DNA from: Planctomycetaceae bacterium
GTDB taxonomy: Bacteria; Planctomycetota; Planctomycetia; Pirellulales; Pirellulaceae
DNA length: 42,489 nt
Reading direction: 5' to 3'
Assembly: GCA_002724245.1 (NCBI GenBank)
Contig: PBOG01000018.1
Location: 30,149 to 72,637, forward strand
Below, one piece after another: positions 177 to 9,036 of this stretch (within the stretch, counting starts at the first letter, position 1; each line of letters starts with the position of its first letter). The position numbers and the translations under genes are program-made. Under the pieces are notes generated by a model, which saw nothing but the letters and a program-made list of their open reading frames with translations, did not search any database and had not been told where the DNA came from.

Positions 177-2258
177 ATGGAGAACCAATCCAAGGACGAC
201 CGTAAACAGGCCGATGCTAATCGCGGGCCAAAACGAGGAAATCCGGGCTTGTGGATTGTCGCAGCGACGGTAGTCCTGTTGCTGTTCCTCATGATGAACA
301 TGACGGGCAATCGGCCGTTTACACTTGAGCGTTATGAGTACTTCCTCCAACTCATCCGAGATGGCGAAGTAATCTCACTTAAGCTCAAAGAACGGCAGGC
401 TACCGGTGTCCTGAAAAACGAACGGGATGCCCCTGACGTACGCGACCCCGTCACCGGAAAAATGGAGCCCCAGACAAAAAACGGAAAGCCTGTCCGCTTT
501 CGAGAGTTTACTGTCAGACTCCCACCGAAAGAGAGCCAAGGGGAACTCGAAGAGTTGTTGCGCGACCCCAGCAACAGGACGATCGCACGGACCTACGAGC
601 CCGCCGACAATACCGGCATGTGGCTTTATGCAATCGCCCTGGGACTCCCACTGGTCGTATTCATCTACCTGTGGAGTTCCTTTCGGCGCACCCGCGACCA
701 GATCATGGGAGGTGGGTTTCTCTCCGGCTTCAGCAAAAGCCCGGCGAAACGTTTTGAGATTGCGGACAAACCGATACTTTTTCGCGACGTCGCCGGGTTG
801 GTGGGCGTCAAGGAAGATCTCGCCGAAGTTGTTGAATTCTTGAAGACTCCCGACAAATTCAGGAAGCTCGGTGGCCAGGTCCCCAAGGGCATCCTGTTAA
901 ACGGCCCTCCAGGAACCGGCAAGACCTTGCTAGCCAGAGCGGTCGCAGGCGAAGCAGACGTACCTTTCTACACCGTCAATGGCAGTGAGTTCATTCAGAT
1001 GTTTGTAGGCGTCGGAGCGAGCCGTGTGCGAGACCTTTTCCAGAACGCCAAAGAAAATTCTCCCGCGATCATTTTTGTTGACGAGATCGATGCGGTAGGC
1101 CGCCAGCGCGGTGCAGGCCTGGGTGGTGGACACGATGAACGTGAGCAGACACTGAACCAGATCCTTAGCGAAATGGACGGCTTTACTCCCAACGACTCGA
1201 CCATTGTGATGGCAGCCACCAACCGCCCCGATGTCCTGGATCCGGCACTCTTGCGCCCAGGTCGTTTTGACCGACATGTCACGGTCGGCCGACCCACGCG
1301 CGAAGGACGTGTCGAAATTTTCAAGGTACACGTGCGGGAAGTCCCACTGTCCGATGATGTCGACTTGGAACGGCTTGCCGATTCAACCATTGGTTTGACC
1401 GGAGCGGACATTCGCAACCTGGTCAACGAAGCTGCGCTGTGGGCCGCTCGCAACGACAAAAAGTCGGTCAGCATGGAAGACTTCGACTATTCCCGCGACA
1501 AGGTACTGATGGGAGCCAAGCGCGAAGAAGTACTGCGCGACGGTGAAAAGGAAAAAACTGCGTACCATGAAGCCGGACACACGCTCGCTGCCTGGTATCT
1601 CACTGGGGCCGATCGCGTCCATAAGGTTACCATCGTTCCACGGGGTAGAGCGCTCGGCGCCACGCAAACCATGCCAGTCGAAGATCGACTGAGCATCTCC
1701 GAGTCAGAGTTACAGGACCAACTCGTCCTGTTGATGGCTGGGCGGGCCGCCGAACAGATCGTTTACGAAGAGACAACGGTTGGTGCAGAAAACGACCTGG
1801 AACGTGCAACGAGCCTGGCGCGGCGCATGGTTACCCACTGGGGAATGAACATGCAGCTAGGTCCGGTGAGCTATAAGCTTTCTGACGAAGACCCGTTTCT
1901 GGGTCGTGAAATTCATCAGCAGCGTCAGTTCAGCGAGCACACGATGGAGCAGATCGATGGCGAAGTGACTCAGATCCTTCAGACAGCGGCAAAACGCGCG
2001 TTTTCGCTGCTTACCGTACATCGCGAGCAGCTTGAAATCGTGACACAGGCCCTGCTGCGGCGGGAAGAACTCGACGAATCGGAACTCACCGAGCTGATCG
2101 GCCCCTCGGTTCACGGTCCAAGAACTCCTGCATCGTCGGACGCAGGGCCTGAGCAAACGGCCCCGGCTGCCGAGTCAACATCGACGGAAGAAACCGACCC
2201 CTCGGTTTCCTCAGAAGGAACAGCAGCGTCCTCCGCATTTGATAACCAGGATGTCTGA
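177..2258 (+). CDS. ftsH: ATP-dependent zinc metalloprotease FtsH
   Basis: Membrane-anchored AAA+ protease that extracts and degrades misfolded membrane proteins and short-lived regulators; it acts as a hexamer at the inner membrane. The 693-aa protein has a short basic N-terminus, a first membrane helix at about residues 26-43, an exported domain, and a second helix at about 148-168. Next come the AAA domain with Walker A GPPGTGKT (243-250), Walker B IIFVDEID (298-305) and the second region of homology around 345-366. The M41 zinc motif HEAGH is at 464-468, with a later Asp (in AENDLERA) as the expected third ligand. The C-terminal tail of about 50 residues is Ser/Thr/Glu-rich and low complexity. 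All catalytic motifs are intact and the length is near the family norm. The ATG is preceded by AAGGG. It is convergent with the HEAT-repeat gene downstream. Confidence 0.97.
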
Positions 2259-3623: not shown

Positions 3624-6305
3624 CTAGTGCTGCGTTGCGGCACCGTTTACCGAGTCGATGCAAAACTGGTCTCCATCAAAATCAACCGTGACATGGCTGC
3701 CTTCGTGAACCGTACCCTTGAGAATCTGGGTTGCCAGCGGATTATGGAGTTGTTGCTGGATCACGCGTTTGAGAGGGCGCGCTCCGTACGTCGGGTCGTA
3801 ACCTTCTTCGGCAATTGCGTCCCGGGCAGCGTCGGTCACCTCCAAGGTCGTTGCCTGCTCGGCAAGTTGACGCGAAAGCCGCTGCAACTGTAAACCCACG
3901 ATTTTGCTAATCTGGCCACGGGTCAGCGGCTTGAACACCAAAGTCTCATCGATGCGGTTAAGAAACTCCGGCAGAAAACGAGCCTGCAACAACTCCTGCA
4001 ACGAGTCCTTCATCTGGTCTTCGGTGCCGCCATCTTGTGAAACCTGCTGAATCAACTGGCTGCCAAGATTACTAGTCATCACCAGAATGCAATTGGTGAA
4101 GTCAACTGTCTTGCCGTGGTTATCAGTCAATCTTCCGTCGTCGAGAACCTGCAACAGTAAATTAAAAACGTCGGTGTGCGCTTTTTCGATTTCATCCAAC
4201 AAGATCACACTATACGGACGGCGCCGAACTGCCTCGGTTAACTTTCCGCCTTCTTCGTAACCTACGTAGCCGGGAGGAGCTCCAATCAACCGGCTGACGG
4301 TGTGCTTTTCCATGAATTCACTCATATCCAACCGTACCATCGCATGCTCATCGTCGAACATGACTTCTGCCAGTGCCTTGCAGACCTCGGTCTTGCCAAC
4401 CCCGGTCGGACCCAGGAACAAAAAAGACCCGATCGGGCGATTGGGATCCTGGAGACCACTGCGACTTCGGCGCACCGCGTGAGAAACCGCTGCAATTGCT
4501 TCCTCTTGTCCAACAACCCGTAAATGCAATCGTTCTTCCATCACCAGCAACCGTGCCCTTTCAGTTTCAAGCATCTTGGCGACAGGAATTCCGGTCCAGG
4601 CACTTACTACCTCGCCGATTTCCTCTTCGGTCACTTCCCGGCGCAATAGCCGGCGTTCGGTCTTGTTGGAGGTCGACTCCGCGCCGGCCTCCTTTGCCTC
4701 TTGCAATTCCTGCGCATCCTCGGCTTCCATGCGGTCCGCCAATTGCCGCCGTTGAAGATCAAGTTCATAGAGCTTCTGGTAACCCGACTCGCTGACCGGC
4801 ATGCCGCGTGATTGCTGATCCTTGATGGTTGCATCCAGCGACGTAAATTCGTGCGTCACGGCCTCAAGCTGCTGGCGCACTTTCTGGACATCGTCCAGCC
4901 CCGACTTTTCCGCTTCCCACTGCGCCCGCAGGTCAGCCAGCTTCTTCCCCAATTCGTCCATTTCTTGTTCGATCTCAGTCAGTTGATCTTGCGCAGTATC
5001 TTCGGTCTCTCCACGCAGTTGCCGCTGAACAAGCTGCAATTGACGCAAGCGCCGCTGGACTTCGTCAATTTCCGCTGGCACGCTCTCCAGTTCCATGGCA
5101 AGCCGACTGGCCGCCTCATCGATGAGATCAATTGCCTTGTCTGGTAAGAACCGATCTGTGATGTAGCGGCTGGAGAGACGGGCGGCGGCAACGATCGCCG
5201 AGTCCTTGATCTTGACCCCATGATGTGCTTCGTAGCGTGGCTTCAAGCCGCGCAGAATTGAAATCGTATCCTCAGCGGTTGGCTCACCGACCTGTACCGG
5301 CTGAAACCGACGCTCCAAAGCCTTGTCTTTTTCAATGTGCTGGCGATATTCATCCAGTGTAGTTGCACCAATGCACCGCAATTCCCCTCGAGCTAATGCA
5401 GGCTTGAGTAATTGAGCAGCATCTGCAGATCCCTCAGCCGCCCCTGCCCCCACAACGGTGTGTAATTCATCAATGAACAAGATGACCTCGCCACCCGCAT
5501 CCTCCATCTCACGCAGCACCGCTTTCAAGCGCTCTTCAAATTCTCCACGAAACTTGGTGCCAGCTACCAGTGCACCCATATCAAGCGCAACCACTCGCTT
5601 ATTCTTGAGACTCTGCGGAACATCTGCTTGAACGATGCGCAATGCCAGACCTTCGGCAATTGCAGTCTTGCCAACCCCGGGTTCGCCGATCAACACCGGA
5701 TTGTTCTTGGTGCGTCTGGAAAGCACTTGAATCACGCGCCGGATCTCTGAGTCCCGGCCAATTACCGGATCCAGCTTACCCTGGTTAGCACGGTCAACCA
5801 GATCGATTCCATATCGCTCTAACGCCTGGTATTTTTCTTCTGGGTTCTGATCGGTCACCCGAGCACTCCCTCGAATAACCTGCAGAGCCGCGAGAACATC
5901 CGCCTCTCGGATACCGTTCATCTGCAAAATACGCTGGCAACTACTCGCCACATGGGTCAATGAAAGTAGCAAGTGCTCTGTCGACGTGTATTCATCCTGC
6001 ATTGCCTCGGTTTGCGTTGCGGCTGCCTGCAGTACATCTTGCAGCTCGCGACTCGCCTGGGGCACAGCCCCCCCCTGACTGCTGGGAAGGCGGTCTAACT
6101 CCCCAATAGCCAAAGCCTTGAGCTGTGGGATATTTACGTCCATACGTTGCAACACGGAAACGACAATTCCATCGTCCTCCGCCATCAGCGCATGCAAAAG
6201 ATGCAATGGCCCCGTTTCAGCGTGCCCACGTTCCGTTGCCAGCTGCTGCGCCGCAACAACTGCCTCTTGAGCCTTCGTCGTCAGTTTGTCCATTCGGAAT
6301 GTCAT
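3624..6305 (-). CDS. clpB: ATP-dependent disaggregase ClpB
   Basis: Hexameric AAA+ chaperone that pulls polypeptides out of aggregates and passes them to DnaK. The 893-aa protein has the N-terminal substrate domain (about 1-150) and NBD1 with Walker A GEPGVGKT (207-214) and Walker B ILFIDE (275-280). The coiled-coil middle domain spans about 410-555. NBD2 has Walker A GPTGVGKT (632-639) and Walker [11 protein letters not shown] (about 699-708). The middle domain distinguishes ClpB from ClpA/ClpC. It is somewhat longer than the E. coli protein (857 aa), partly through an acidic stretch (about 527-548) at the end of the middle domain. The start [15 protein letters not shown] matches the usual ClpB N-terminus; a second Met four residues in is an alternative. 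It lies downstream of dnaK on the same strand, separated by a gap with a 23-bp tandem repeat, so it may have its own promoter. Confidence 0.97.
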
Positions 6306-6381
6306 CGATTCGGACCTTTCGTTGACGGACGTTCAGATTCAAAATTCCCGTACACGTCTCAAGACAAGCCTCGTACGCACC

Positions 6382-6473
6382 GCGAGACAGACACAGTACA
6401 CATCGTGAGACAGACACAGTACACATCGTGAGACAGACACAGTACACATCGTGAGACAGGCACAGTGCGCACA
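6382..6473. repeat. Four-unit 23-bp tandem direct repeat
   Basis: Four head-to-tail units begin at 6382, 6405, 6428 and 6451, with exactly 23 bases between unit starts. Units 2 and 3 are identical (starting GTGAGACAGACA and ending CACATC). Unit 1 differs at its second base, and unit 4 diverges in its second half. There are no spacers, so this is not CRISPR. The array lies 77-168 bases upstream of the clpB start. Confidence 0.95.
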
Positions 6474-6589
6474 AAACATTCTCGCGCCAATCACGCAACC
6501 AGGGCGGTGCTCCGCAGACCGTGCCCCAGAACGGACTCCACCGGTAACCACCCGGAGCACAACTTCGCTCGGCGCGAGGCAGATGCGTC

Positions 6590-6610
6590 ACGTTGCCACA
6601 GCCACAACGT
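6590..6610 (-). repeat. Inverted repeat downstream of dnaK
   Basis: ACGTTG at 6590-6595 pairs with CAACGT at 6605-6610 across a 9-base loop, 17 bases past the dnaK stop. A second short stem, TCGGA/TCCGA, lies between it and the stop. Neither is followed by a T-run on the transcribed strand, so a terminator function is only a possibility. Confidence 0.4.
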
Positions 6611-6626
6611 CGGACAAAACATCCGA

Positions 6627-8552
6627 TCAGGAGTCCTTGACTTCAAACTCCGCATCGATCGCATCGTCATCCGAACTACCACTGGTACCATCCGCGGGCG
6701 GTTCATCCGCGTCCCCAGCATTGCCGTCTGCCGCCCCCGTCTTTTCGTACAAGGTCTTGCTGAATGCCATGCGAGCCTGCTCTAACTCCTCGATTGTGGC
6801 CTTCAACGCCGGAACATCCTCTGCCTTAGCGGCCTCCCGCACTTTCTCGATCGATTTTTGTAAAGGATCCCGATCTGCATCGGTCAGCTTTTCGGCGTTA
6901 TCTTCGATCTCTTTCTCGAGCTGATAACACATGTGTTCCGCCTCATTGCGCGCTGTAGCCAACTCAAACTGACGTTTGTCTTCGTCGGAGTTCGCCTCGG
7001 CGTCACCACGCATGCGGTCAATTTCCGCCTGGTCCAACGCGGACGCCTGTTTAATCGTCACGGAAGCCTCTTTGTCCGTTCCCAGATCCTTGGCCGACAC
7101 GTTGAGGATCCCGTTTTGATCGATATCAAATTTAACCTGGATCTGTGGTGTTCCACGCGGTTGCGGAGGAATTCCTTCCAGATTGAATTCTCCCAGCAAG
7201 CGATTGTGCGCAGCCATTTTCCGTTCACCTTGGAACACCTTAACCGTTACGGCGGTTTGTCCATCGGCAGCCGTACTAAAATTCTCCTCCTTGGCCGCAG
7301 GAATCGTCGTATTGCGATTCACTAGCGCGGTGAAGATACCACCTTCCGTCTCAATGCCTAAGGTAAGTGGAGTGACGTCAAGCAATAAAACATCCGTGCG
7401 ATCGCCCGCCAAGACACTACCTTGTATCGCCGCACCGGCCGCCACCACTTCATCCGGGTTAACACCCTTATGCGGCTCCTTGCCAAACAGCTCCTTCACC
7501 ATCGCCTGGACCTTGGGCACCCGCGTTGAACCTCCGACAAGCACCACTTCGTCGATGTCGCCTGGAGAGAATTTTGCGTCCTTGAGCGCCTGTTCAATCG
7601 GTGTGCGACAGCGATCGACAAGGCCGTCAATCAGCTCTTCAAATGTCGCCCTGGTAATGGTCATCTGCAAATGCTTGGGACCGGATGCGTCCGCCGTGAT
7701 AAACGGCAGATTGATTTCGGTTTGCGGCACACTGCTCAGCTCTTTCTTGGCCTTCTCACAGGCTTCTTGCAGACGCTGCAATGCCATTTGATCCGTTCTC
7801 AGATCAATGCCACTTTCTGTTTTGAATTCTGCTGCCACATGGTTGATCAGCTTGTCGTCGAAATCATCGCCACCCAGGTGCGTGTCGCCACTGGTAGCAA
7901 CGACCTCGAAAACCTTATGTCCGTCTTCCTCTTCGACACGTAATACAGAGACATCAAAGGTTCCGCCACCGAGGTCAAAAACGGCAATTTTCTCGCTCTT
8001 CTCGTGTTCGATCCCGTAAGCCATTGCTGCAGCCGTCGGTTCATTGATGATCCGGGCCACTTCCAGGCCGGCGATCTCGCCAGCATCTTTTGTCGCCTGG
8101 CGTTGTGCATCATTGAAGTAGGCGGGGACTGTGATCACCGCCTTGTTGACTTTATGCCCCAGGTACGACTCCGCTGCTTCCTTCAATTTGCGCAGCGTCT
8201 TGGCTGAAATCTCTTGCGGTGTGAACTGGTTATCATCGATACCAACTTGAACATATTCACCGGAATCTCCAACAACGTTGTAAGGAACCATGGTTTCCTC
8301 AGATTCCACTTCATGGTGACGACGCCCCATGAACCGCTTGATCGAATAGACGGTGCGGGTAGGATTCGTCACAGCTTGCCGCTTGGCCGGTTCACCAACG
8401 AGTTCGCCTTTGTCGGTAAATGCAACAACGCTGGGAGTCAGCCGATTGCCTTCTGCGTTCTGCAACACCTTGGGTTCACTGCCTTCCATGACAGCCACCA
8501 CTGAATTCGTTGTTCCCAGGTCGATCCCAATGATCTTTTCGCCTTGTGACAT
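6627..8552 (-). CDS. dnaK: Hsp70 chaperone DnaK
   Basis: ATP-driven Hsp70 chaperone that binds exposed hydrophobic segments and works with DnaJ, GrpE and ClpB in the cytoplasm. The 641-aa protein has the phosphate-1 motif [10 protein letters not shown] (8-17), the phosphate-2 motif [11 protein letters not shown] (about 195-205), the adenosine motif [12 protein letters not shown], the interdomain linker [13 protein letters not shown] and the substrate-binding domain. A Gly/Asp-rich C-terminal lid ends in DAEFEVKDS. The length is normal. An open frame extends 41 codons further upstream, but the start is fixed at 8552: an AGGAGG (8561-8566) sits 8 bases before this ATG and [13 protein letters not shown] is the expected N-terminus. 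No dnaJ or grpE is adjacent. An exact sigma-54-type promoter lies about 155-170 bases upstream of the ATG. Confidence 0.98.
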
Positions 8553-8680: not shown

Positions 8681-8705
8681 AAAACGCGGTTGTAGTAACA
8701 AGTAA

Positions 8706-8722
8706 TGCAAAGGCCGTGCCAA
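8706..8722 (-). promoter_or_regulatory. Sigma-54 (RpoN) -24/-12 promoter for dnaK
   Basis: The minus strand reads TTGGCACGGCCTTTGCA. This equals the sigma-54 consensus TTGGCACG-N4-TTGCW at every defined position, with the GG and GC elements at the required spacing. It points toward dnaK. A transcript starting about 12 bases downstream (near 8696) would have a leader of about 145 bases. Use of the site would need an activator ATPase, and none is encoded in this window. Confidence 0.7.
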
Positions 8723-9036
8723 GGCTAAACCAAGATGCACATTAAATCGCAAGTCGTTTAAAATAAACACCTTACGGAAACGCACCGGAAACGTCGCATC
8801 TGGCAGTCGATTAACAGGCCCCAGAATCCTGCCAATTTGACAGCTCGCTAACCTGCGCCAAAGGCCTGACTCATCCGAGTCAGGTGGTAACGTAAACGCC
8901 GATGCCCAGGACCCCGGCGCATGTGATGGTTGGTTGACACCCTGTGGAGTCGTCAGTACAAGAACGCGCATCCCCGACGAGATATTGCCCACCATCGGTG
9001 CGTAAACGGAAAACGATGGGGCAACGGAATTGGACA

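Follow-up and report, generated by a model that had tools for sequence, protein, structure and literature searches.

A putative sigma-54-dependent chaperone regulon at dnaK in Planctomycetota

The dnaK gene of the planctomycete DNA analysed here (42,489 nucleotides, referred to as the window) is almost certainly preceded by a sigma-54 promoter, and the evidence points to a chaperone regulon that reaches beyond this single gene. A two-component sigma-54 chaperone regulon, in which the dnaK element is served by an activator of the L008 type reading an upstream palindrome (TGYCA-N3-TGRCA), is the best explanation of the observations and is considered likely (Table 1). A preliminary description of the window had proposed that dnaK may be under enhancer-dependent, activator-gated control. 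Such gating is well supported because the palindrome is conserved, the same pair of sites recurs at other chaperone genes, and the activator gene adjoins dnaK in 20 of 67 genomes from the rest of the phylum.

Table 1. Features of the dnaK region in the window, and the five sigma-54 activators of the same genome
Feature	Position	Strand	Basis or domains
sigma-54 promoter, -24/-12 element TTGGCACGGCCTTTGCA, 17 bases	8706..8722	-	0 mismatches; conservation
Upstream palindrome TGTCAAATTGGCA (TGYCA-N3-TGRCA), probable activator site	8830..8842	-	Conservation; 121 bp from the T of TGGC
Second palindrome GTAA-N19-TTGC (consensus cGTAA-N19-TTACg)	8749..8775	-	Enriched in family and phylum upstreams
dnaK, 641 aa	6627..8552	-	Pfam HSP70, E 2.9e-250
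clpB-type disaggregase gene, downstream of dnaK	3624..6305	-	Pfam ClpB_D2-small, AAA_2
FtsH-type protease gene	177-2258	+	AAA and peptidase M41
Activator L006			FHA-GAF-AAA-HTH
Activator L007			GAF-AAA-HTH
Activator L008	G000:C80:42433-43833		REC-AAA-HTH; PF00072, PF00158, PF02954 (Fis-type HTH)
Activator L009			AAA-HTH alone
Activator L010			REC-AAA-HTH

The sigma-54 element and its conservation

As the preliminary description had stated, the element (TTGGCACG-GCCT-TTGCA, read from 8722 to 8706 on the minus strand) agrees with the RpoN consensus at all defined positions, with no mismatch to TTGGCACGN4TTGCW. Its GG at -24, its GC at -12 and their fixed spacing all fall inside the TGGCACG-N4-TTGCW consensus. 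In the whole window, it is the sole match to TTGGCACGN4TTGCW with fewer than two mismatches. It is correctly oriented and ends 154 bases before the dnaK ATG at 8552, close to the 155 or so given earlier, and transcription from it would be expected to start near 8695. The genome also contains the sigma factor on whose presence the earlier reading depended, with one rpoN found (PF04552 match, E 1.6e-61).

From base composition, about 0.003 exact matches are expected in the window. Over the whole assembly (7.8 Mb in 287 contigs), TGGCACGN4TTGCW has four exact matches compared to two for a backwards control pattern. Genome-wide, exact matches are therefore just twice as frequent as the control, so that exactness is weak evidence alone and conservation must decide. 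Two of the four matches lie in front of dnaK and hsp20. The remaining two (L002 position 1501 and L003 position 1516) have no palindrome and precede ORFs that were judged by eye, rather than by a search, to be subtilase-like and transporter-like, respectively.

A DnaK search of 100 family genomes was positive in 91, with 100 matches, and upstream DNA was read for 90 of these matches (seven were unfetched and three lacked a gene start). Each dnaK upstream was scored for agreement with the consensus at 12 positions, GG and GC being required, and at least 10 matching positions within 350 bp counted as positive. By this measure, 86 of the 90 upstreams from the family carry the element, compared to 3.3% of dinucleotide shuffles and 0/90 on the reverse strand. 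Judging from their matches and starts, three of the four failures (L168, L182, and L185) are likely to be second or divergent DnaK copies. The fourth (L133, from G096) has a long tandem repeat that occupies the 700 bp before dnaK, where neither promoter nor palindrome is visible.

For the rest of the phylum, 45 of 113 DnaK matches were unfetched and L254 had no recognisable start, leaving 67 of 68 loci; 48 of these 67 dnaK upstreams carry the element with at least 10 positions, compared to 2.2% of shuffles and 3/67 reversed upstreams. The shuffles for the family element count keep dinucleotides, and those for the rest of the phylum, for the palindromes and for groES keep single-base composition only. 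Outside Planctomycetota, the element was found in 3/69 dnaK upstreams and the TGYCA-N3-TGRCA palindrome, with at most one mismatch, in 7/69. This control set began as 79 loci, of which four were dropped (short upstream or no start) to leave 75, and six planctomycetes, recognised by title, were then set aside; among these six, the promoter is present in four and the palindrome in five. Conservation of the site in the dnaK leaders of relatives, which had been suggested as a check, was thus found both in the family and in the rest of the phylum, and the earlier view that a chance match is unlikely agrees with both the expectation for the window and the 86 of 90 family upstreams that keep the element.

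Downstream, dnaK and the clpB-type gene are on the same strand and separated by 321 bp. This gap (6306-6626) yielded no sigma-54 site matching at 11 or 12 positions, and the clpB-type gene is possibly served by read-through from dnaK. Within the gap, a unit of about 26 bases (CTGTGTCTGTCTCACGATGTGTA and variants) is repeated head to tail. With the FtsH-type protease, the ClpB-type disaggregase and DnaK all encoded inside 9 kb, the region is a protein quality-control neighbourhood.

Upstream palindromes and other chaperone genes

The upstream palindrome was first noticed when the 86 family promoters were lined up, and it lies upstream of the -24 box. In the family, it is perfect in 62/86 upstreams and has at most one mismatch in 80/86 (shuffles 0.06% and 3.7%, respectively); in the rest of the phylum, the corresponding counts are 32/67 and 53/67 (shuffles 0 and 4.0%). 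Its distances from the promoter fall in helical-turn steps, with a 10.5-bp period for family dnaK (p 0.0016) and groES (p 0.0048), both calculated on unique distances, and for the other phylum dnaK genes (p 0.03; 60 distances, not reduced to unique), although the related sequences behind these p values are not fully independent. TGYCA-N3-TGRCA is the probable binding site of the activator.

The palindrome is not confined to dnaK. The assembly contains seven TGYCAWWWTGRCA palindromes compared to one for a control pattern, and five of the seven precede chaperone genes, namely dnaK, hsp20 (two palindromes), groEL, and groES, identified by Pfam HSP20, Cpn60, and Cpn10. The sigma-54 elements at the dnaK, hsp20, groEL, and groES promoters match 12, 12, 12, and 10 of 12 positions, and the palindromes are 121 bp (dnaK), 150 and 113 bp (hsp20), 121 bp (groEL), and 132 bp (groES) from them. 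A second GroEL-like ORF, judged by eye, comes after groES. Neither of the remaining two palindromes has a chaperone gene nearby or a sigma-54 element in the expected place. Additionally, the groES upstreams of relatives, taken as one locus each from 30 of 41 genomes searched, carry the promoter in 28/30, the palindrome in 26/30, and both in register in 22/30. Shuffles gave 3.0% for the promoter and 5.3% for the palindrome, and the reverse strand gave 2/30 for the promoter. One locus (L376) was misplaced owing to a short contig flank and was scored as a miss.

Between the palindrome and the dnaK promoter there is a further conserved element, cGTAA-N19-TTACg. When different spacers were compared with two mismatches allowed, 19 alone stood out (50/86, compared to 25.8 expected), the other spacers giving 12-28 matches, and 33 of these 50 matches sit 54-56 bp ahead of the promoter. 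With one mismatch allowed, the element occurs in 26/86 family upstreams (3.1 expected) and in 14/48 outside the family (1.7 expected). The genome studied here has further copies ahead of groES (one mismatch) and of hsp20 (two mismatches), which lie nearer by roughly one helical turn. The conserved second palindrome suggests that a further regulator acts at dnaK.

The strongest competing account is that dnaK relies mainly on a promoter of the sigma-70 or heat-shock sigma type at another place in the 485-bp gap, with sigma-54 adding to expression conditionally. DnaK is required under all conditions, which would favour an ordinary promoter, and so would the other regulator that the second palindrome suggests. 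However, no sigma-70-like site on the dnaK strand passed the scan, and no convincing sigma-70 or sigma-32 site was seen there, the E. coli consensus sequences being assumed. By the same sequences, the best sigma-70 match before dnaK (8/12) overlaps the -24 box, and the best match to the sigma-32-like consensus (9/12) falls where the divergent gene begins. A main promoter of this kind is regarded as unlikely.

HrcA/CIRCE and sigma-32 are the textbook systems of heat-shock control. HrcA was found in 0/100 family genomes by a search that was positive in 7/14 control genomes. The preliminary description had noted that no CIRCE is visible, and this holds in the scans of 90 family and 67 phylum dnaK upstreams (0/90 and 0/67), which lacked a positive control, since none was found in the 75 control loci either. 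The usual place of CIRCE in Firmicutes is ahead of hrcA rather than dnaK, so that a scan of dnaK upstreams provides no positive test and the firmer result is that of the HrcA search.

The candidate activator and its kinases

Five strong sigma-54 activators (PF00158) with an HTH domain are encoded in the genome (Table 1). Evidence that is good but indirect names the L008-type regulator as the one acting on the chaperone genes. L008 is classed by its domains as an NtrC-type response regulator despite the absence of a canonical GAFTGA loop, for which it reads GAFTDA. Nine family copies (L008, L212, L209, L203, L201, L204, L200, L206, and L221) have GAFTDA, GAFTHA, or GAYTDA at this position, and nine members of its clade outside the family have a sigma-54 contact loop of GAFTGA or GSFTGA.

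Gene order links this clade to dnaK. In 18 of 67 non-family genomes, the gene directly upstream of dnaK on the same strand encodes an activator with the RTLYRK recognition helix of the L008 clade, and 12 of these 18 genomes carry a sigma-54 site of at least 10 positions. The gene order of G133 and G185 adds two cases, such that an L008-type activator lies directly upstream of dnaK in 20/67 phylum genomes, spanning 11 families (f7, f8, f15, f16, f24, f27, f31, f37, f41, f46, and f49). An activator beside dnaK was found in 0/91 genomes of the family itself. Among the 109 activators placed in a tree, every one of the 11 dnaK-adjacent proteins used groups with L008; their clade has 25 members drawn from 25 genomes, one per genome, and moderate SH-like support (0.868). 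The robustness of this clade was assessed with 60 FastTree bootstraps rooted on L006: L007, L009, and L010 of the same genome fall outside it in 60/60, and it stays one per genome in 43/60.

It could instead be that the sigma-54 promoter is real and is driven by L006, L007, L009, L010, or a mix of these. L008 is a single match in each of 91/100 family genomes (71/72 good ones), and the L006, L007, and L009 types likewise accompany it in every family genome with all activators read; inside the family, therefore, just linkage and phylum-wide occurrence favour L008. L010 was rejected as a universal activator, being absent in G002 and G067, for which all activators were read and which both have the L006, L007, L008, and L009 types. 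The clades of L006 and L007 are made up of family genomes only, whereas the palindrome is phylum-wide. Furthermore, dnaK is adjoined only by the L008 clade, from which the bootstraps consistently exclude L007, L009, and L010.

Co-occurrence across the phylum gave a mixed outcome. The prediction was fixed beforehand, and 32 phylum genomes were searched, with G107 and some others added to the original list; a clear L008-type protein was defined as one of at least 560 bits, a line drawn after the scores were seen. Of 22 genomes with both sites, a clear L008-type protein was found in 18 but not in the other four (G190, G120, G129, and G168), which is some support for another activator. Of 10 genomes without the site pair, six nevertheless have an L008-type protein. 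The presence of the L008 clade thus failed to separate site-bearing from site-less genomes among these 32. Three of these six (G133, G173, and G179) have the activator directly before dnaK with no convincing promoter in the DNA read, and so some lineages are either wired differently or have motifs that have diverged. Weighing these observations together, a role for activators other than L008 is improbable, and more so than an ordinary promoter. Finally, that the -24/-12 match is a functionless coincidence of sequence, as the genome-wide count of four exact matches to two would allow, is hardly credible given the 86/90 and 48/67 conservation and the phased palindrome.

Returning to the L008-type activator as the preferred regulator, a kinase ORF was seen next to the activator gene at 7 of the 18 loci read for the clade, some of which are too short to show one, and at five further loci. 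Eight kinases were scanned and have HisKA and HATPase-type domains, with no sensor domain detected at E 0.001. The kinase of G133 has about 300 residues without a Pfam match ahead of the kinase domains, in a stop-to-stop frame. No kinase lies alongside L008 itself, whose neighbours are an ABC transporter gene and a MutL-like gene. In two genomes, TGYCA-N3-TGRCA is found just before the kinase-activator pair, as a perfect copy in G185 (L407 position 2530) and with one mismatch in G107 (L411 position 1317), which hints at self-control.

Proposed mechanism and relation to known systems

In the mechanism proposed here from comparative sequence data, RNA polymerase with sigma-54 would transcribe dnaK from the -24/-12 element, where the holoenzyme would wait as a closed complex. 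L008, as an NtrC-type protein, is predicted to bind TGYCA-N3-TGRCA about 100-175 bp upstream on a preferred helix face, and the bound activator would presumably loop to the promoter and open it by ATP hydrolysis. Phosphorylation of the activator and induction of the regulon by heat are both expected under this scheme. The same activator would serve hsp20, groES-groEL, and the second groEL, and the regulon would take the place held by HrcA/CIRCE or sigma-32 in other bacteria. In relatives, the activator often appears to have as its partner a small histidine kinase in which no sensor domain is recognisable, and the signal of stress may therefore be relayed to this kinase by another protein; free DnaK or unfolded protein could be guessed to be that signal. 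Heat as the stimulus and feedback by DnaK would fit this arrangement. The genome studied here may also use a partner kinase, although none adjoins L008.

The sigma-54 chaperone regulon is probably ancestral in Planctomycetota. A broader scheme is more tentative, and its chances are put at slightly less than even: heat-shock chaperone control throughout the phylum, replacing HrcA and sigma-32 and ancestral to the group, would consist of a sensorless kinase (perhaps checked by DnaK), a single-copy NtrC-type activator reading TGYCA-N3-TGRCA, and a second factor at cGTAA-N19-TTACg. If true, a core stress response would be gated by an ATP-driven enhancer mechanism. Now that the promoter and the operator are defined and there is a single candidate activator, whose gene is linked to dnaK in 11 families, planctomycete heat-shock control becomes directly testable.

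The putative target genes are the same as those of HrcA/CIRCE and sigma-32 control. The difference lies in the regulators, as HrcA was found in none of the 100 family genomes, no CIRCE was found in the upstreams scanned, and no convincing sigma-32-like promoter was seen before dnaK. A parallel in promoter type is provided by groESL3 of Bradyrhizobium, which is one of several such operons, is controlled by NifA, and is tied to nitrogen fixation. Its RpoN dependence is recorded in PMC4842269, where it is listed with nif and fix genes; as here, a chaperonin operon is placed under a -24/-12 promoter. In Myxococcus xanthus, according to the account in PMC9109919, the HsfB-HsfA phosphorelay acts on lonD. 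As in the present proposal, a histidine kinase and an NtrC-like response regulator turn on a heat-shock gene. The Myxococcus system, as described there, has a hybrid kinase and acts on lonD and secondary-metabolite genes, whereas in the one proposed here the kinase, as seen in relatives, would be small and the targets would be dnaK, groE, and hsp20.

Within Planctomycetota, an array study of R. baltica (PMC2754498) reports the induction of dnaK, GroEL, Hsp20, and ClpB on a shift from 28 to 37 C, and rpoE and rpoN are among the sigma-factor genes that it discusses as not seen to be regulated on that shift. Among open-licence full texts, no report of the palindrome or of the activator was found. 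The nearest precedent is a 2025 computational survey (PMC12316311), which cites an earlier sigma-54 study in Pirellula strain 1 and reports that sigma-54 promoters are enriched before the GroEL, GroES, GrpE, DnaJ, DnaK, and IbpA groups in Planctomycetota and Bacteroidota. The promoter type and the genes are the same as here. The main text of that survey does not contain the term UAS, and its available portions give no upstream operator, activator assignment, spacing, or gene linkage. Overall, sigma-54 enrichment at planctomycete chaperone genes was already published in 2025, and the operator and the candidate activator are apparently new here.
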